Shown: positions 2,128 to 17,256 of the stretch, piece after piece
How positions within the stretch are numbered: position 1 is the first letter of the stretch
Layout of the letters: each line of letters begins with the position of its first letter
IMG/VR virus record: IMGVR_UViG_3300044616_000015
Location: 1-20,312 of that record
From: a virus
DNA: 20,312 nucleotides
Strand: one strand, 5' to 3'
Position numbers and translations under genes: made by a program
Notes under the pieces: model-generated
Seen by the model: the letters and a program-made list of their open reading frames with translations, nothing else
What the model was told of the DNA's origin: nothing
The model's database searches: none

Positions 2128-2482
2128 GAAAAGAACGCCAAAAGAAGTTGCAGAAGAAATGGAAAGTGAACAAAATTTTCCGGTTCTGCATAAATACAGC
2201 AAGGTCGGCAAAGCGGTTGAAAAAATGAAGCCCGGCGCCGGTAAAGATTTGGCAACAGGCGCATATTTTGGTGGGATGGCTCCAGTAGGAACCGCTCAAG
2301 TTTTGCAGTCTGCGGTAACAGGGCGCAAGGGCAGAAGCCAAGAAGAAGTGGATGAGCTTACTCGCGAAGTTGGACGCGGTCAGCGAGCGGAGAAGAAAGC
2401 CAAAGGCGGCAAAATATCGTCAGCATCAAAACGCGCCGATGGCTGCGCCATTCGCGGTAAGACTAAAGGACGAATGGTGTGA
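2120..2482 (+). CDS. small basic protein with C-terminal RADG tag
   Basis: The 120-residue product from GTG 2120 begins M-TEKRTPKEVAEEMESEQNF. Three parts can be seen: an acidic/basic helical head (1-35), a Gly/Ala-rich central stretch (about 37-68, GAGKDLATGAYFGGMAPVG) that could be a hydrophobic hairpin, and a charged helix (70-95). The chain ends with the KGGK...RADG-CAI-RGKTKG tag (95-120). The tag is spelled with codons different from those of the other three carriers. The gene overlaps the previous stop by 8 bases and the next start by 4 (GTGA). The function is not recognised. Placement between the two DUF5872-like modules is notable. Confidence 0.75.
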   Translation: MTEKRTPKEVAEEMESEQNFPVLHKYSKVGKAVEKMKPGAGKDLATGAYFGGMAPVGTAQVLQSAVTGRKGRSQEEVDELTREVGRGQRAEKKAKGGKISSASKRADGCAIRGKTKGRMV

Positions 2483-3867: not shown

Positions 3868-4035
3868 ATGGACAGTATGAAAAAGGTAGCTGACAAAGCA
3901 GTCGAAGGACATGAAAAGCGTATGCACGGAGCCAAAAAAATGGCTAAAGGCGGCGTGACCGGCGAAGCCATGAAGAAGTATGGACGTAACATGGCGCGTG
4001 CTATGAACCAGCGCGGTACTTCTAGGAGCCGATAA
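3868..4035 (+). CDS. 55-residue basic protein
   Basis: ATG 3868 follows an AGGAG site at 3858-3862 and opens a 55-codon frame ending at TAA 4033-4035, which overlaps the next ATG by one base. The product is very basic and Met-rich: MDSMKKVADKAVEGHEKRMH, then GAKKMAKGGVTG and KKYGRNMARAMNQRG. The tight spacing, good ribosome site and resemblance to short KKGG/NMARAMNQ proteins remembered from other phages make it credible despite its size. It has KK-x-x-KGG and KKYG elements like those of the basic proteins at 325-2482 but lacks the RADG tag. The function is unknown. Confidence 0.75.
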   Translation: MDSMKKVADKAVEGHEKRMHGAKKMAKGGVTGEAMKKYGRNMARAMNQRGTSRSR

Positions 4036-4226
4036 TGGAAAAGATTAAGTCTTCACCTCCGTCAGTGCTTAAGTCTTACTCAGGCAAAGAGTGCATGAAC
4101 GAGATGAACATCGCTGGTGGTGTAGTTAGCAAAGGTAACTACAAAGAGCCTAAGACCACTGGTATCAAGATTCGTGGCACAGGTGCTGCGACTAAAGGTG
4201 TAATGGCACGAGGCCCGATGGCATGA
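4035..4226 (+). CDS. 63-residue basic protein with RGTGAATKG C-terminus
   Basis: The product is 63 residues, with an N-terminal half containing a lone Cys (SGKECMNEMNIAGG) and a basic C-terminal half ending in IKIRGTGAATKGVMARGPMA (44-63). That ending is one I recall in many aquatic phage small proteins. It is not the RADG tag, but it has the same placement and flavour (RG, KG, RG with small residues), so it may be a second C-terminal signal of the same kind. AGGAG at 4024-4028 gives proper spacing to ATG 4035. The stop overlaps the adaptor start by 4 bases (ATGA). Confidence 0.75.
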   Translation: MEKIKSSPPSVLKSYSGKECMNEMNIAGGVVSKGNYKEPKTTGIKIRGTGAATKGVMARGPMA

Positions 4227-4942
4227 CATACAACGAACTGTTCCTTGCTGTTAAGGATTACCTACAGAACGACTTCCCCACGAATACGTGGACGAACGTC
4301 GCGGGTACCGGCGTTTCTACAACAAACGGCACGGAACAGATCGACCTTTTTATTACGCAAGCAGAAGAGCGGGTTTACAACACTGTTCAGATTCCTGCCC
4401 TGCGTAAGAACGTCACCGGTAGCATTCAGCAGGGTAACAAGTACCTGTCCTGCCCGAACGACTTCTTGTCAGTGTTTTCGATGGCGGTCATCGATGGCGA
4501 CGGTAACTACGAGTACCTGCTGAACAAAGATGTGAACTTTATCCGCGCGGCTTACCCCAACCCGGCTGATCAGGCGCTGCCTAAGTACTACGCTTTGTTT
4601 GGCCCGACGGTTATCAACACCAGCATCACCGACGAGTTGAGCTTCATTCTTGGCCCGACACCGGACGATACGTATGCTGTTGAGCTGCATTACTACTATT
4701 ACCCAGAGTCAATCACTGTTGCTGACAACGGGCGTACTTGGCTGGGCGACAACTATTCGCCTGTGTTGCTATACGGTACGTTGGTTGAGGCGTACACCTT
4801 CTTAAAAGGTGAACAGGATTTGATTACGCTGTATGACGGCAAGTATAAAGAAGCCATGAGCCAGCTCAACCGTCTGGGTACAGGTCTTGAGCGTGGTGAT
4901 GCTTACCGTGATGGTCAGGCAAAGATTAAGGTGATGCCGTGA
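4223..4942 (+). CDS. phage adaptor protein (SU10 adaptor-like)
   Basis: The 239-residue product fits a widespread phage adaptor family. It has an N-terminal helix (MTYNELFLAVKDYLQND), a segment with DLFITQAEERVYNTVQIPAL (about 34-53), and a beta core with YLSCPNDFLSVFSMAVIDGD, YYALFGPTVI and ELHYYYYPESI. A C-terminal helical bundle follows (LVEAYTFLKGEQDLITLYDG and RLGTGLERGDAYRDGQAKIK). In SU10-type podoviruses such proteins form the ring beneath the portal to which nozzle and tail fibres attach. It is flanked by small basic proteins upstream and virion-type genes downstream, consistent with a connector role. The ATG overlaps the previous stop. Confidence 0.85.
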   Translation: MTYNELFLAVKDYLQNDFPTNTWTNVAGTGVSTTNGTEQIDLFITQAEERVYNTVQIPALRKNVTGSIQQGNKYLSCPNDFLSVFSMAVIDGDGNYEYLLNKDVNFIRAAYPNPADQALPKYYALFGPTVINTSITDELSFILGPTPDDTYAVELHYYYYPESITVADNGRTWLGDNYSPVLLYGTLVEAYTFLKGEQDLITLYDGKYKEAMSQLNRLGTGLERGDAYRDGQAKIKVMP

Positions 4943-11084: not shown

Positions 11085-11180
11085 GGGAACGACATGAGTA
11101 AAAAATATCCCGGTGGGTTCGTCACAAACCTAGGCACGGTTGGCTACTCCGTTTTCTTTGATGGGACGGGGGACTATTTA
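9273..11180 (+). repeat. dispersed LamG border repeats
   Basis: Three copies of a DNA block encoding FDG[ST]GDYL occur at 9273-9294, 10572-10594 and 11157-11180. The last two share TTTGATGGGACGGGGGA exactly although they lie in different genes, and the first differs at a few bases. They mark the same point of each LamG module and could serve as homology for recombination between modules. Confidence 0.75.
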
Positions 11181-14100
11181 TCGGTGCCTACTGGGACTGC
11201 GTTGAGTTTGACCGGGGACTATACGGTTGAGGCATGGGTCTATGTTACGGCGCAACCGGGGGCATCGTTTGCGGCAATTTTTTCAAACGGGGATTTCCCT
11301 GCTACGGCGCAGGTAGTTTTAGCGCTTGTAACTTCAGGCACGGGAGTTATACCCACTCTTTATATGTCCAACGGGAGTGGTTGGGCGGTAGGCATCTCTG
11401 GGGCGCAACAAATTAATTTAAATACGTGGACGCACGTAGCAGCAACATGTTCTGGCTCGACGTTTACTGTGTGGACTAACGGCGTTTCTTCGGGAACGGC
11501 TACTTATTCAGGGACAAGAGCAACCCCTGCGGCAACGTCTGTAATTGGCAGACTTTATGTCTCAACCGACGCTTACTACGTTACCGGGAATATTTCCAAC
11601 CTGCGCGTTGTTAAAGGCACCGCACTCTACACCGCTGCGTTCACCCCACCGACCCAGCTACTCAACGTCACCAACACGAGCCTTTTAACCTGCAACTCCC
11701 CGGCAATCGTCGATCAAAGCAGCAATAACTTCGCCATTACCGTCAACGGCAACGCAGCAGTCAGCACCCTAACACCGTTCCCTGTCGTTAACCCCGCACC
11801 GACTTCTGCTTTCCCATTAACCCCCGCGCCCGGTGTCTGGACACTCGACCAAGCGTTGCAGTACACCCAACAAGGTGTCTGGCCGACAACCGCACTTAAT
11901 GCGGTCGAGGATGTGTTTTCGACGTACTTGTACACTGGTACTGGAGCGGCGCAAAGTATCAATAATGGGATTGGGCTTGGGAACAGCGCAACTAATAACT
12001 CTAGCATCTCTTTGAATGCTTCAACCCCGTCATATTTGACTTTTAGTTCTCAGGTTAATTTAAGCGGTAATTTTTGTATTCAAGCTTGGGTTTATCCAAC
12101 TAGCCTGACAGGAACTCGTTTATTATTTTCTAGCACGAGCGACAACAATGTTCAGATGCCCCGCATTCAAGAAAATGGCGGCATTTACTGTTTCGTAAAC
12201 GGCACAGAGATCACATCAGGAGCGACAGCCAGCGCACTTCAAGCTAATGTTTGGACGCATCTTGCAATGACGCGCTCTGGCTCAACCTTTCGCATTTTTG
12301 TGAATGGTACGTTATATGCAACGGCGACTTACTCCGGAACCTTCAACATTGGTGTGCTAGGTGTATTTTTCTTTAATGGCTCTTTATTCGGAACGCCTTA
12401 TGCTTTTGGTGGAAATATTTCAAACGCTCAAATTGTTTCTGGGAGTGCGATTTACACAACAGACTTCACGCCACCACAAAATACGCTTATTGGCGGTTCT
12501 GTATTGTTGGGCGCAGGAGCCACGCCGCTTGCTGATACTTCCGGTACGGGTAAGACGGTCACTCAATTTGGTTCGCCAGCAGCGTCTTCATCTGGCCCTT
12601 GGTCGGTGGGTGGAAACAACGGTGGGTTGGTATGGTGCAAAAGCCGTACTCAAGCAACGTCACACGGGTTGTTTGATACGGCCCGTGGCGTAAACCAGCG
12701 GCTATCTTCAAATGGAACCGGTGCAAGCGCTAATGATACAAGCTCTTTAACTTCATTTAATTCAAATGGGTTTTCACTTGGTTCTGATCCTGCTGGAACC
12801 TGCAATACAAATGCTGATAACTATGTCTCATGGACATTCCGCGAGCAGCCGAAGTTCTTTGATGTAGTGACGTATACGGGAACAGGATCAGTGCAAAACA
12901 TAGCGCACAACCTTGGCTCTGTGCCGGGGTGCGTAATTACTAAAAAGACTAGCAGCACAAGTAACTGGGCTGTCTATCATCGAGGAATTACGTCAAGTGA
13001 AAATGGCGCGATTTTGTTGAATTCAACAGACGCGTGGGTTTCTAGCTCTGCTGTGTGGAACAACACTGCGCCTACGTCCACAAATTTTACTGTTGGTACG
13101 GCTGATGCCACAAACATTAATGGCGAAACCTACGTCGCCTACCTATTCGCTCACAACGCTGGTGGCTTTGGTTATTCTGGTACGGATAATGTGATTAGTT
13201 GTGGGTCGTTTACAACTGACGGTAGTGGCAATGCGACGGTGACGTTGGGGTATGAGCCGCAATGGGTTTTAATTAGACGAACGGACAGTGTTGGTAACTG
13301 GTTATTAATGGACAACATGCGGGGGATGCCAGTAACAGCCAACTCATCAGCAACTACTGGCGGTCGACTTTATCCAAATCTTGCTAATGCAGATGACGGG
13401 TTTCCGTCTGTTATTGCAAACGCCACTGGGTTCACGACGGTTCCGGGAACGATTAACACATCTGCCGCCTACGTCTACATCGCCATCCGTCGTGGACCAA
13501 TGCGCGTCCCATCAACGGGGACGAGTGTGTTTTACCCCAATACCGTAGCACAAACAGACCAACCAATTTCTTCCAACGCGCCATTCGCTCCTGATTTAAT
13601 TAGTACGTTTTCTAGAGACGGGGAAAATAGAAGCTCTGTATACGACCTATTCACTATGCAAGATAGATTACGTGGGCTGGGCATACCTAGTAATACGTTT
13701 AATCCTTCTGTTACAGCTCCGGGGCTTATTACTACTAGCTCAGACGCGGAACAAGCTTCTCCCGGTACATACGTTCAACTACGAGCAGACGGTAGAAACA
13801 TTACTCGTGGTGGTGGGTGGAATAGTGCTAGTTATGGTAATTGGATATATTACTTCTTCCAACGCGCCCCCGGTTTTATGGATGTGGTGTGCTATACGGG
13901 GAATGGAAGCACCCAAAGCGTTAGCCATAATTTAACAGTAGTGCCAGAGCTTATTATTGTTAAATGGAGAAACGGCGGGGCAAATGCGTATGATTGGCGC
14001 GTCTATCAAGGAAATTTAGGGGTAACAAACTGGGGGCGGTTTACAAACGACCCTTTTAGCGCCGCATCTGTTCCATACCCTTGGGGCACTCCAACAAGCT

Positions 14101-14495
14101 CAGTATTTAACCTTGGGGATGGCGCAACATGGCTTTCTATTAATGGGTCTGGAAGAAACTACGTCGCCTATCTATTCGCTTCCATTCCCGGTGTTTCCAA
14201 AGTAGGCAGCTACACCGGCACAGGCACAACGCAAGTCATCAACTGTGGCTTTACTGCGGGCAGTCGATTCGTGATGATTAAACGTGCAGACTCAACGGGC
14301 GATTGGTACGTCTGGGATAGTGCACGGGGTATTGTGGCGGGCAATGATCCTTATCTGCTACTCAGCTCAAACGCGGCTGAAGTCACCAACACCGACTTTG
14401 TTGACACGGCGAACTCAGGGTTCGAGATCAGCAGCACAGCACCTGCGGCGATTAACGCTAACGGTGGCACATTCATCTTCTTGGCTATTGCTTGA
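11094..14495 (+). CDS. very large modular tail adhesin: LamG plus DUF7483-type modules
   Basis: The 1133-residue product begins MSKKYPGGFVTN, like the gene at 7852. Modules in order: LamG (about 20-190, FDGTGDYL at 22, closing NLRVVKGTALYTAAFTPPT); a GVWTLDQALQYTQQGVW linker (247); the start of a DUF7483-type module (VFSTYLYTGTGAAQS, about 275-297); a second LamG (about 300-463); the rest of that module (GGLVWCKSRTQ at 510, FDTARG, FFDVVTYTGTGSVQNIAHNL, to YVAYLFAHN at 680); a half-unit ending YVYIAIRRGPM (about 791-801); and a second copy (FMDVVCYTGNGSTQS near 927, YVAYLFAS at 1023, then VMIKRADSTGDW to the end). Such proteins are typical phage tail fibres or spikes. Receptor binding is inferred from the lectin modules. 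Confidence 0.85.
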   Translation: MSKKYPGGFVTNLGTVGYSVFFDGTGDYLSVPTGTALSLTGDYTVEAWVYVTAQPGASFAAIFSNGDFPATAQVVLALVTSGTGVIPTLYMSNGSGWAVGISGAQQINLNTWTHVAATCSGSTFTVWTNGVSSGTATYSGTRATPAATSVIGRLYVSTDAYYVTGNISNLRVVKGTALYTAAFTPPTQLLNVTNTSLLTCNSPAIVDQSSNNFAITVNGNAAVSTLTPFPVVNPAPTSAFPLTPAPGVWTLDQALQYTQQGVWPTTALNAVEDVFSTYLYTGTGAAQSINNGIGLGNSATNNSSISLNASTPSYLTFSSQVNLSGNFCIQAWVYPTSLTGTRLLFSSTSDNNVQMPRIQENGGIYCFVNGTEITSGATASALQANVWTHLAMTRSGSTFRIFVNGTLYATATYSGTFNIGVLGVFFFNGSLFGTPYAFGGNISNAQIVSGSAIYTTDFTPPQNTLIGGSVLLGAGATPLADTSGTGKTVTQFGSPAASSSGPWSVGGNNGGLVWCKSRTQATSHGLFDTARGVNQRLSSNGTGASANDTSSLTSFNSNGFSLGSDPAGTCNTNADNYVSWTFREQPKFFDVVTYTGTGSVQNIAHNLGSVPGCVITKKTSSTSNWAVYHRGITSSENGAILLNSTDAWVSSSAVWNNTAPTSTNFTVGTADATNINGETYVAYLFAHNAGGFGYSGTDNVISCGSFTTDGSGNATVTLGYEPQWVLIRRTDSVGNWLLMDNMRGMPVTANSSATTGGRLYPNLANADDGFPSVIANATGFTTVPGTINTSAAYVYIAIRRGPMRVPSTGTSVFYPNTVAQTDQPISSNAPFAPDLISTFSRDGENRSSVYDLFTMQDRLRGLGIPSNTFNPSVTAPGLITTSSDAEQASPGTYVQLRADGRNITRGGGWNSASYGNWIYYFFQRAPGFMDVVCYTGNGSTQSVSHNLTVVPELIIVKWRNGGANAYDWRVYQGNLGVTNWGRFTNDPFSAASVPYPWGTPTSSVFNLGDGATWLSINGSGRNYVAYLFASIPGVSKVGSYTGTGTTQVINCGFTAGSRFVMIKRADSTGDWYVWDSARGIVAGNDPYLLLSSNAAEVTNTDFVDTANSGFEISSTAPAAINANGGTFIFLAIA
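13131..14180 (+). repeat. DUF7483-type module duplicated within the adhesin gene
   Basis: The blocks 13131-13151 and 14160-14180 are 21 bases long with one mismatch and encode YVAYLFA in both copies. Surrounding protein repeats (TGTGSVQNIAHNL against TGNGSTQSVSHNL; WVLIRRTDSVGNW against VMIKRADSTGDW) show that the whole module was duplicated, with the rest diverging far more than this border. Confidence 0.7.
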
Positions 14496-14496
14496 T

Positions 14497-14501
14497 GGAG
14501 G
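14497..14501 (+). promoter_or_regulatory. strong Shine-Dalgarno site in front of an ATT codon
   Basis: GGAGG at 14497-14501 lies 5 bases before ATT 14507 and directly after the previous stop (TGA 14493-14495). An in-frame TAA at 14504-14506 immediately precedes the ATT, so no upstream in-frame start is possible. No ATG, GTG or TTG lies at the correct distance in the frame of the following gene. Confidence 0.75.
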
Positions 14502-14506
14502 CATAA

Positions 14507-15193
14507 ATTGACCCGCTAACCCTTCTCGCTGCTGCCAATGCTGCTGTTGCGGCTGTAAAGAAAGGATGCCAGCTTTACAAAGAGATCAAGGGCGCAGCGG
14601 GGGATGTAAGTGACGTACTGAAGGACTTGAAGGAGCAGTACAACAAGATAGTAGACCCAACGCCTGTACAGAAACAGCAGTACAACGCCGAAGTGCAGAG
14701 AGTGCAGGAGATAGCGAAGTCCGACCCGAACGACGTTTACACCGAGATCGGTGACCAGTTGGGGGTGTTGATGGACAGCTACGACGCGCTAAGTAAGGCG
14801 TTATTGGCAGAGCAGGTGGCGGGCAGTAAGGTGTACAAGGGTGACGAGAGTATTGGTAGGCGGGCACTGCGGCGCATTATCATAACGACGAGGCTGGATG
14901 CGATGTTGGCTGAGATACGCGAGACGATGGTGTACCGAGCGCCGCCGGAGTTAGGGTCACTCTGGAGCAAGTTTGAAGAGATGTGGCAGACCATCGTCAA
15001 AGAGCAGGAAGCAGCCCACGCCGAGGAACTTAGACTGATACAGATCGCAAGATGGCGACGCAGAAAAAGAATAGCGGAAATCAGGGCAAAGCTAACGTGG
15101 ATTTCAGCCGTGGTTTTCGTAGTGGCATGGGCAGTGGGGCTAATGTGGCTGACGACAAAAAGCGCGATGATGAGAACGTCCCTTGGTCACTAA
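14507..15193 (+). CDS. membrane-anchored helical protein, probable ATT start
   Basis: From ATT 14507 the product has 228 residues and would read M-DPLTLLAAANAAVAAVKKG, an N-terminus I recall from phage proteins starting MDP. The GGAGG site spaced 5 bases supports it. The next in-frame candidates are TTG 14627, whose possible site is too close, and ATG 14771, which would remove a third of the chain. A long charged helical region (about 40-190) precedes a basic stretch (RWRRRKRIAEIR, about 181-192) and one membrane segment (LTWISAVVFVVAWAVGLMWL, about 195-214). This suggests an inner-membrane protein with its bulk in the cytoplasm. Its place ahead of the endolysin hints at lysis or superinfection functions, without proof. 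Confidence 0.75.
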   Translation: MDPLTLLAAANAAVAAVKKGCQLYKEIKGAAGDVSDVLKDLKEQYNKIVDPTPVQKQQYNAEVQRVQEIAKSDPNDVYTEIGDQLGVLMDSYDALSKALLAEQVAGSKVYKGDESIGRRALRRIIITTRLDAMLAEIRETMVYRAPPELGSLWSKFEEMWQTIVKEQEAAHAEELRLIQIARWRRRKRIAEIRAKLTWISAVVFVVAWAVGLMWLTTKSAMMRTSLGH

Positions 15194-15357
15194 TCGTCGT
15201 AGTGCTGGCTGTGCTGTTGACGTTCTTCATAGTGATGCCGATCTTGGCGTTTATGTACTACGACATGTATTACGCGACACAGGCAGCGGTGCACGAGGTT
15301 AGGAAGATGCGGGAGTTGCGCAAAGAAATACAGATTGAAAGGATGTACGGGCAATGA
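15145..15357 (+). CDS. small single-span membrane protein overlapping its neighbour
   Basis: The frame is open from ATG 15052 to TGA 15355-15357. The clearly gene-like part starts near GTG 15145 (M-ADDKKRDDENVPWSLIVVV): an acidic/basic head, a strong membrane segment (SLIVVVLAVLLTFFIVMPIL) and a charged tail (AVHEVRKMRELRKEIQIERM) likely to be a cytoplasmic coiled coil. ATG 15052 or ATG 15127 would add a Gly/Ser/Asn-rich head encoded by the same bases as the upstream protein's membrane segment. None of the three starts has a strong ribosome site; GTG 15145 is preceded by GGGG at 15136-15139. The stop overlaps the endolysin start (ATGA). A lysis-associated or holin-like role is possible. Confidence 0.6.
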   Translation: MADDKKRDDENVPWSLIVVVLAVLLTFFIVMPILAFMYYDMYYATQAAVHEVRKMRELRKEIQIERMYGQ

Positions 15358-16010
15358 TTACCCTTGCACAGTTTAAGAAGTTCGCACCTAACAGCAAATA
15401 CCAGCAGCAGTGGTACGACACGCTGTTTAGCCCGCAGACTGAATTTGGCGGCAAGTCTCTTCTAGAAGAGTACCAGATCAACACCCCCAAGCGCATTGCA
15501 GCTTTTATCGCGCAGTGTGCCCACGAGTCGGGCGGCTTTGTGTTTGTCACCGAGAACCTGAACTACAGCGCGTCGGGTCTGATGCGTGTCTTCCCCAAGT
15601 ACTTTCCTGATCCCGCCACAGCCAAACTGTATGAGCGCAACCCACAGAAGATAGCCAGTAAGGTATACGCCAGTCGGATGGGTAATGGCGACGAGGCTAG
15701 TCAGGAGGGGTTCAAATTTCGCGGACGCGGGATTTTGCAGCTGACCGGCAAGGACAACTATTTTTGGTTCGCAGCGTCGCTGGACATCACGCCAGAAGAA
15801 GCGGCTGAATATTTGGAGACCTTCGAGGGCGCAGCCCAGAGCGCCTGCTGGTTCTGGGAGACGAATAAGTTAAACACGCTGGCAGATGCAGGCGATATTA
15901 AAGGCATGACTCGGCGTATTAACGGCGGTTTAATTGGACTAGACGATAGGATTCATCACTATGAACTGGCGCTTAACAGCTTTAATACTTCTAGCAGTCG
16001 CTTGGCTTAG
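15354..16010 (+). CDS. GH19-family endolysin (chitinase/lysozyme fold)
   Basis: The 218-residue protein has the GH19 layout used by phage endolysins to cleave peptidoglycan glycan strands. AHESGGF at 56-62 places the catalytic acid at Glu58, ENLNYSASGL at 67-76 supplies the second acidic residue at Glu67, and the substrate-cleft block FKFRGRGILQLTGKDNY is at 120-136. ACWFWETNKLN (about 164-174) and TRRINGGLIGLDDR (about 186-199) are the usual C-terminal helices. No signal peptide is seen, so export would need a holin, for which a candidate lies downstream. Length matches single-domain phage GH19 enzymes. The last 50 bases also encode the signal peptide of the lipoprotein at 15961. Confidence 0.93.
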   Translation: MITLAQFKKFAPNSKYQQQWYDTLFSPQTEFGGKSLLEEYQINTPKRIAAFIAQCAHESGGFVFVTENLNYSASGLMRVFPKYFPDPATAKLYERNPQKIASKVYASRMGNGDEASQEGFKFRGRGILQLTGKDNYFWFAASLDITPEEAAEYLETFEGAAQSACWFWETNKLNTLADAGDIKGMTRRINGGLIGLDDRIHHYELALNSFNTSSSRLA

Positions 16011-16606: not shown

Positions 16607-16788
16607 TGCTTATCTACTTCCGCATGGCTGTTACTGTTTTACTAAGTATGTTCTTGGTGTTTCAGATTCACGCCGGGGAAACGAAGAAGGTGTGCCACGC
16701 TGAGAAAAGACAGGGTAAAGAGGTACAGGTCTGCCGTGAGATCAAGGTACACAAGAAGCTGGATGGCACGAAGGTGCCGCCAAAATGA
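16603..16788 (+). CDS. small exported protein with a Cys pair
   Basis: The 61-residue product has a hydrophobic N-terminus (MMLIYFRMAVTVLLSMFLVF) and a likely signal-peptidase site near QIHA-GE (residue 24). The remaining 37-residue basic peptide contains two Cys (31 and 43) in VCHAEKRQGKEVQVCREIKV. This suggests a small periplasmic protein with one disulphide. I recall similar short exported proteins with a KVHKKLDGTKVP-like end in aquatic phage lysis regions; no function is known. Both ends overlap the neighbouring genes by 4 bases, implying coupling with the holin-like gene and the spanin gene. Confidence 0.75.
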   Translation: MMLIYFRMAVTVLLSMFLVFQIHAGETKKVCHAEKRQGKEVQVCREIKVHKKLDGTKVPPK

Positions 16789-17249
16789 ACCCGTGGCTGA
16801 TACTCTCCTTCGTCTTAGCTGTTGGCGCAGCGGCTGGGGGCGGGTATTATAAAGGCAATTCTGCGGGTAAATCTGAAGTCCAGCAGCAGTGGGATAAGGA
16901 GAAAGCCGAGCAGTACGCCGCCTACGCCAAGGGGCAGGAAGAAGCGCGTCAACGGGAGCAAGCACTACAAGCAAACGCAGACAAGCTGCGGAGGGATAAG
17001 GATGCTGAGATCAGGAACATTAATGCTCGCGCTGCCGCTCTTACTAACAGCCTGCGCGACCGCCAAACCCGCCCCACCGAAACCGATACCGTGTCCAGTA
17101 CTCCCGGCGCTAGACCAGCCAGTTGTAGTGGAAAAGAGCTTTACCGAGAGGATGGAGAGTTTCTTGTTAGGCTCGCTGCCGAAGCAGACGGGCTTAAAGC
17201 TGCCCTCGACCAATGTTACCGACAATACGACGCCGCAAGGCAAAAGTAA
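16785..17249 (+). CDS. Rz: Rz-like inner-membrane spanin
   Basis: The 154-residue product has the i-spanin layout: an N-terminal signal anchor (MNPWLILSFVLAVGAAAGGG, about 4-22), then a long Gln/Glu/Lys/Arg-rich coiled coil through the periplasm (about 30-95, EKAEQYAAYAKGQEEARQRE). A C-terminal helical segment (DGEFLVRLAAEADGLKAALD) is typical of Rz-like proteins, and two C-terminal-half Cys residues could cross-link partners. In Gram-negative phages i-spanin pairs with an outer-membrane lipoprotein (o-spanin) to fuse the two membranes after endolysin has acted. The o-spanin is encoded in the +1 frame inside this gene at 17002. The start overlaps the previous stop (ATGA). Confidence 0.9.
   Translation: MNPWLILSFVLAVGAAAGGGYYKGNSAGKSEVQQQWDKEKAEQYAAYAKGQEEARQREQALQANADKLRRDKDAEIRNINARAAALTNSLRDRQTRPTETDTVSSTPGARPASCSGKELYREDGEFLVRLAAEADGLKAALDQCYRQYDAARQK
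16990..16995 (+). promoter_or_regulatory. Shine-Dalgarno site for the embedded Rz1 gene
   Basis: GGAGGG lies 6 bases before ATG 17002, within the Rz reading frame. A near-perfect site at this spacing, unrelated to the start of Rz, is strong support for independent initiation of the embedded lipoprotein gene. Confidence 0.8.
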
Positions 17250-17256
17250 GGAATAG
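17002..17256 (+). CDS. Rz1: Rz1-like outer-membrane spanin lipoprotein, embedded in Rz
   Basis: The 84-residue product from ATG 17002 is a classic o-spanin: a signal peptide (MLRSGTLMLALPLLLTAC) with lipobox L-T-A-C and lipidation at Cys18, then a short Pro-rich mature chain (AKPAPPKPIPCPVLPALDQP). Ala at +2 permits outer-membrane sorting. It lies in the +1 frame relative to Rz, ends 7 bases beyond it, and its reading frame is open further upstream only as noise. Position, lipobox, Pro-richness and the strong ribosome site together make this assignment secure. It would pair with the Rz-like protein to disrupt the outer membrane at the end of lysis. Confidence 0.9.
   Translation: MLRSGTLMLALPLLLTACATAKPAPPKPIPCPVLPALDQPVVVEKSFTERMESFLLGSLPKQTGLKLPSTNVTDNTTPQGKSKE

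Follow-up and report, generated by a model that had tools for sequence, protein, structure and literature searches.

The AUU at position 14507 of a 20,312-nt viral DNA (IMG/VR virus record IMGVR_UViG_3300044616_000015; the whole stretch analysed is referred to here as the window) is very probably a true start codon that has been kept by selection, judging from sequence comparison. AUU is kept in this position across more than 100 distinct sequences of a phage family. In the window the junction reads, 5′ to 3′, ...GCT TGA TGGAGGCATAA ATT GAC CCG CTA ACC..., and the features of the locus are as follows.

11094-14495, plus strand: upstream ORF of 1133 aa, with its TGA stop at 14493-14495, 11 nt before the ATT (coupling distance).
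14497-14501, plus strand: Shine-Dalgarno (SD) sequence GGAGG, 5 nt before the ATT, recognised from the sequence and from its anti-SD pairing energy.
14504-14506, plus strand: in-frame TAA directly 5′ of the start; of 132 ATT/ATC genes, 122 have an in-frame stop no more than 12 nt away.
14507-14509, plus strand: ATT (AUU), the very probable start codon, at a homologous start column that is family-wide, with ATT or ATC in the clade of the window and ATG or GTG elsewhere.
14507-15193, plus strand: gene of an all-helical protein of 228 aa whose C-terminal part contains a hydrophobic (transmembrane) stretch, supported by pN/pS, invariant residues and AlphaFold.
15052-15357, plus strand: small membrane-protein gene that starts inside the ATT gene, overlapping it by about 140 nt, and is kept in relatives.
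15354-16010, plus strand: endolysin with weak GH19 similarity (phrog_181 endolysin, 8e-70; Pfam GH19 below cut-off).

The ATT frame contains 228 codons and ends with a stop at 15191-15193. The TAA at 14504-14506 is in frame, and without readthrough it rules out any in-frame extension upstream. The original prediction had placed the ATT behind this TAA and 5 nt past GGAGG, with TTG 14627 as the nearest standard start in frame and 14771 as the first ATG. These coordinates were confirmed in the sequence, TTG 14627 (codon 41) being the earliest in-frame ATG, GTG or TTG after the ATT and ATG 14771 lying at codon 89. Its central proposal, initiation at ATT with a strong ribosome site, is strongly supported by the comparison with relatives. 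The ATT codon is mostly unpaired in simple folding (0.98 in the window). A conserved RNA structure at the start was considered and rejected, as the upstream sequence is too variable.

A protein-based scan of IMG/VR returned 241 relatives, the best 80 of which were read at the homologous codon. This codon is ATT in 59, ATC in 14, GTG in seven and ATG in none of these 80 nearest relatives. A second scan, with the distant relative MW202462 (Manatee Spring phage) as the query, found mostly ATG or GTG in the same column, together with three ATT. In the pooled, de-duplicated set, 266 of 266 sequences carry ATG, GTG, TTG, ATT or ATC at the start codon or one codon before it; some loci of this pool were retrieved by a pattern that demanded ATH, which inflates its share of ATT, while the count in the 80 relatives is independent of the pattern, and the pattern is itself blind to the SD. 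The presence of start-type codons throughout marks the column as the start site of the family, at which the clade of the window uses AUU. The ATT contigs come from many separate metagenomes, often with differing upstream genes. At one locus (L342, approximately 2236-2244, minus strand) the apparent start is an ATT lying one codon earlier (ATT GTT GAC CCN), and no canonical codon is available there. No full relative was found in bacterial genomes. The sole bacterial-genome match is partial (residues 10-99, 48%) and belongs to the Chitinophagia MAG contig RGVM01000128.1 (L377); it may be a hint to the host of distant relatives, or a binned phage contig.

The ATT and ATC starts are preceded by GGAG(G), located roughly between -10 and -6, with G, G, A and G present at positions -10 to -7 in 85, 84, 77 and 86% of cases, respectively, in a leader of 36 nt that otherwise shares just 38% pairwise identity. 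In these comparisons, which are of metagenomic contigs and assume a standard anti-SD, the anti-SD pairing energy averages -7.6 kcal/mol at ATT and -6.0 kcal/mol at ATC starts, and -3.1 kcal/mol at both ATG and GTG starts. Start class (ATT/ATC versus canonical) requires 21 changes on a FastTree tree of 245 proteins, with at least 14 of the changes on well-supported branches, although recombination across the gene boundary can give the same appearance. The upstream DNA of L085/L107 is recognisably homologous to that of L082/L096, so that here the switch took place in situ and not solely by module exchange. Across 14 independent pairs, SD strength follows start class in approximately 9.6 and opposes it in 0 (median sign-test p 0.002). 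It is a general finding that poor starts tend to carry stronger SDs, with which the co-variation of start class and SD in this family fits (PMC5622118). AUU starts are very rare, and among approximately 69,000 reconstructed ancestral starts one survey recorded only two changes to AUU (PMC5622118).

Of the 114 ATT/ATC genes in which the distance was measurable, 106 have a long preceding ORF with its stop no more than 15 nt from the start codon. This stop-start spacing is that of translationally coupled genes, and the ATT gene is rather likely to be functionally coupled to its upstream neighbour. In an M13-derived test system, an SD increased reinitiation more than threefold (PMC2268962).

In the proposed mechanism, the initiator tRNA would read the AUU at 14507 as fMet. 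The near-perfect SD at its fixed distance would anchor either a 30S subunit or a ribosome fresh from termination on the preceding gene, and the poor AUU-CAU pairing could thereby be tolerated. Output of the membrane protein would be held at a limited level, dependent on upstream translation and probably also on IF3, since IF3 discriminates against AUU. Limited output and termination-reinitiation at the ATT gene are what the arrangement suggests, and by analogy with known genes the AUU start is probably sensitive to IF3. The N-terminal peptide predicted from the ATT start is MDPLTLLAAANAAVAAVK, with or without formyl-Met, in a segment that includes DPLTLLAAANAAVAAVK. A phage-encoded unusual tRNA was considered and rejected, as neither the window nor 34 related loci (partial genomes) yielded a tRNA with ARAGORN.

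Among the alternatives, the one that survives best is nonetheless improbable. It takes the main start to be the UUG at 14508-14510, which overlaps the ATT in the +1 frame and is followed by a stop at the fourth codon of that frame (TTG ACC CGC TAA; TAA at 14517-14519). The AUU would then be a minor start of the longer gene, or would be used by backward reinitiation after termination at the end of this three-codon minigene. As a start codon UUG normally outperforms AUU, and a +1 stop occurs within four codons in 100 of 122 ATT genes. However, the ATC members have no UUG and still keep the SD. The +1 stop is also unspecific, as it derives from the leucine at codon 4, where CTA or TTA places a TAA in the +1 frame directly behind the start whatever the start class, and these codons are enriched in the ATG relatives too. 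CTA and TTA together make up 75% of codon 4 (window 14516-14521) among ATT genes and 86% among ATG genes; for leucine elsewhere in the same genes the figures are 27% and 43%.

It is very improbable that translation begins downstream, at TTG 14627, ATG 14771 or another canonical codon, and that the segment before it is untranslated. A listing of ORFs with canonical starts does give TTG 14627, and a phage entry in UniProt, with 71% identity over the aligned part, is recorded as a fragment of 166 aa, which suggests a truncated annotation. Codons 2-33, however, evolve as protein, with a pS of 0.70, a pN of 0.076 and a pN/pS of 0.11, indicating purifying selection on the N-terminus. The 36 nt upstream show 38% pairwise identity among relatives, placing coding selection after the ATT and not before it. 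Many of the invariant residues of the family (15 of 25) also lie before codon 41. One gene with ATT (L277) and one with GTG (L014) are identical at all 176 compared residues, with 58 nucleotide differences, 22 of these within the first 40 codons. The first downstream canonical codon is not fixed in position, being scattered over 22 positions in the ATT/ATC genes, and 85% of these codons are without a good SD.

Readthrough of the TAA by ribosomes from the upstream gene, giving a fusion in which the ATT is an internal isoleucine codon, has a still smaller chance of being correct. Some relatives do have their long upstream ORF in frame with the ATT gene, terminated by the TAA beside the ATT, but the upstream gene of the window is in another frame, as it is in 43 of 124 relatives, and readthrough cannot therefore explain the ATT feature. 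The upstream genes differ, and relatives with GTG and ATG start at this column. Readthrough would also leave the SD unexplained, and the third-position bias of the column is unlike that of internal isoleucine codons. Within these genes isoleucine is encoded by ATC (40%), ATA (34%) and ATT (26%), whereas the start position has 107 ATT, 11 ATC and 0 ATA; no ATA was found at the start column even by a pattern scan that admitted it. The weakest alternative, a sequencing error or strain variant of a true ATG, had been raised by the original prediction and is consistent with ATT being one base from ATG and with the ATG of distant relatives, but is refuted by the homologous codons of the close clade, in which no ATG occurs among the best 80 of 241 relatives and ATT is seen in many independent assemblies.

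An AlphaFold model of the 228-aa product of the AUU-started gene is all-helical (mean pLDDT 77, pTM 0.55), with a long C-terminal helix that contains the hydrophobic stretch. The protein had no PHROG match, only sub-threshold Pfam matches and no significant PDB sequence match, while Foldseek gave no PDB match at E < 0.001 and matched only uncharacterised phage proteins. There was no match above cut-off to IF3 or to any curated family, as would be looked for under infC-type autoregulation, and no lysis family or solved fold was matched that would identify a known holin or lysis protein. A membrane role around lysis for this tail-anchored protein is a guess from gene position. Of the 82 ATT/ATC loci whose DNA extends far enough, 77 have the small membrane-protein gene downstream, with a similar offset in the examples inspected, and the two overlapping genes may yield their products in a set ratio. 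Further downstream, window positions 16785-17256 hold an Rz-like spanin gene and an overlapping lipoprotein-like frame in the usual Rz/Rz1 arrangement.

The ATT gene joins the known AUU-started genes infC, pcnB and cvfC1, among which it is unusual in its breadth and its repeated switching. Initiation at AUU in a phage is known from gene 26 of T4; that is an internal start in one phage, whereas here an entire clade uses AUU as its main start. Searches of the open-access literature found no earlier description of this phage AUU family. The AUU, AUC or AUA start of infC is conserved and non-canonical and is the basis of IF3 discrimination (PMC5472188), with AUA used in Staphylococcus aureus (PMC13009471). 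In contrast to infC, which is autoregulated by its own product, the phage gene encodes an unrelated membrane protein, and any effect of IF3 would therefore be one-way. The S. aureus genes cvfC1 (AUU) and ccpN (AUA) resemble the phage gene in having a conserved non-canonical start, theirs with an extended SD, and in S. aureus reporters AUU and AUA starts gave less protein than AUG (PMC13009471). Both are cellular genes, whereas the phage family shows many switches of start class, with SD strength changing alongside. AUU is reported to limit the expression of pcnB in E. coli (Binns and Masters 2002, cited in PMC13009471); pcnB is likewise a single cellular gene and not a phage family. IF3 represses non-canonical starts, including the GTC start of sigR in Streptomyces, a rare start within a translationally coupled pair (PMC5472188). 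It differs from the phage gene in its codon and in encoding a cellular regulator.

The reading of AUU as the start has consequences for annotation. In MW202462 (L082; gene 3998-4687) the annotated start is ATG 4025, 27 nt downstream of an in-frame GTG at 3998. This annotated start is probably too late, and GTG 3998 restores the conserved N-terminus. Public records are expected to carry genes of the ATT clade in truncated form. When only canonical starts are allowed, gene calling loses the most strongly conserved portion of the protein; phage annotations would be corrected by admitting AUU where it is combined with a strong SD.

It is tentatively proposed that AUU serves the phage as a regulatory device. 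By needing a strong SD, termination upstream and low IF3 activity, it could delay the membrane protein or match its level to the translational state of the host during infection, and the phages may swap between AUU with a strong SD and GUG or AUG with a weak SD at similar output. With more than 100 AUU sequences and at least some 14 changes of start class in which the SD follows, the family provides a natural series on the trade-off between start codon and SD, on which it could be tested whether phages exploit control by IF3.
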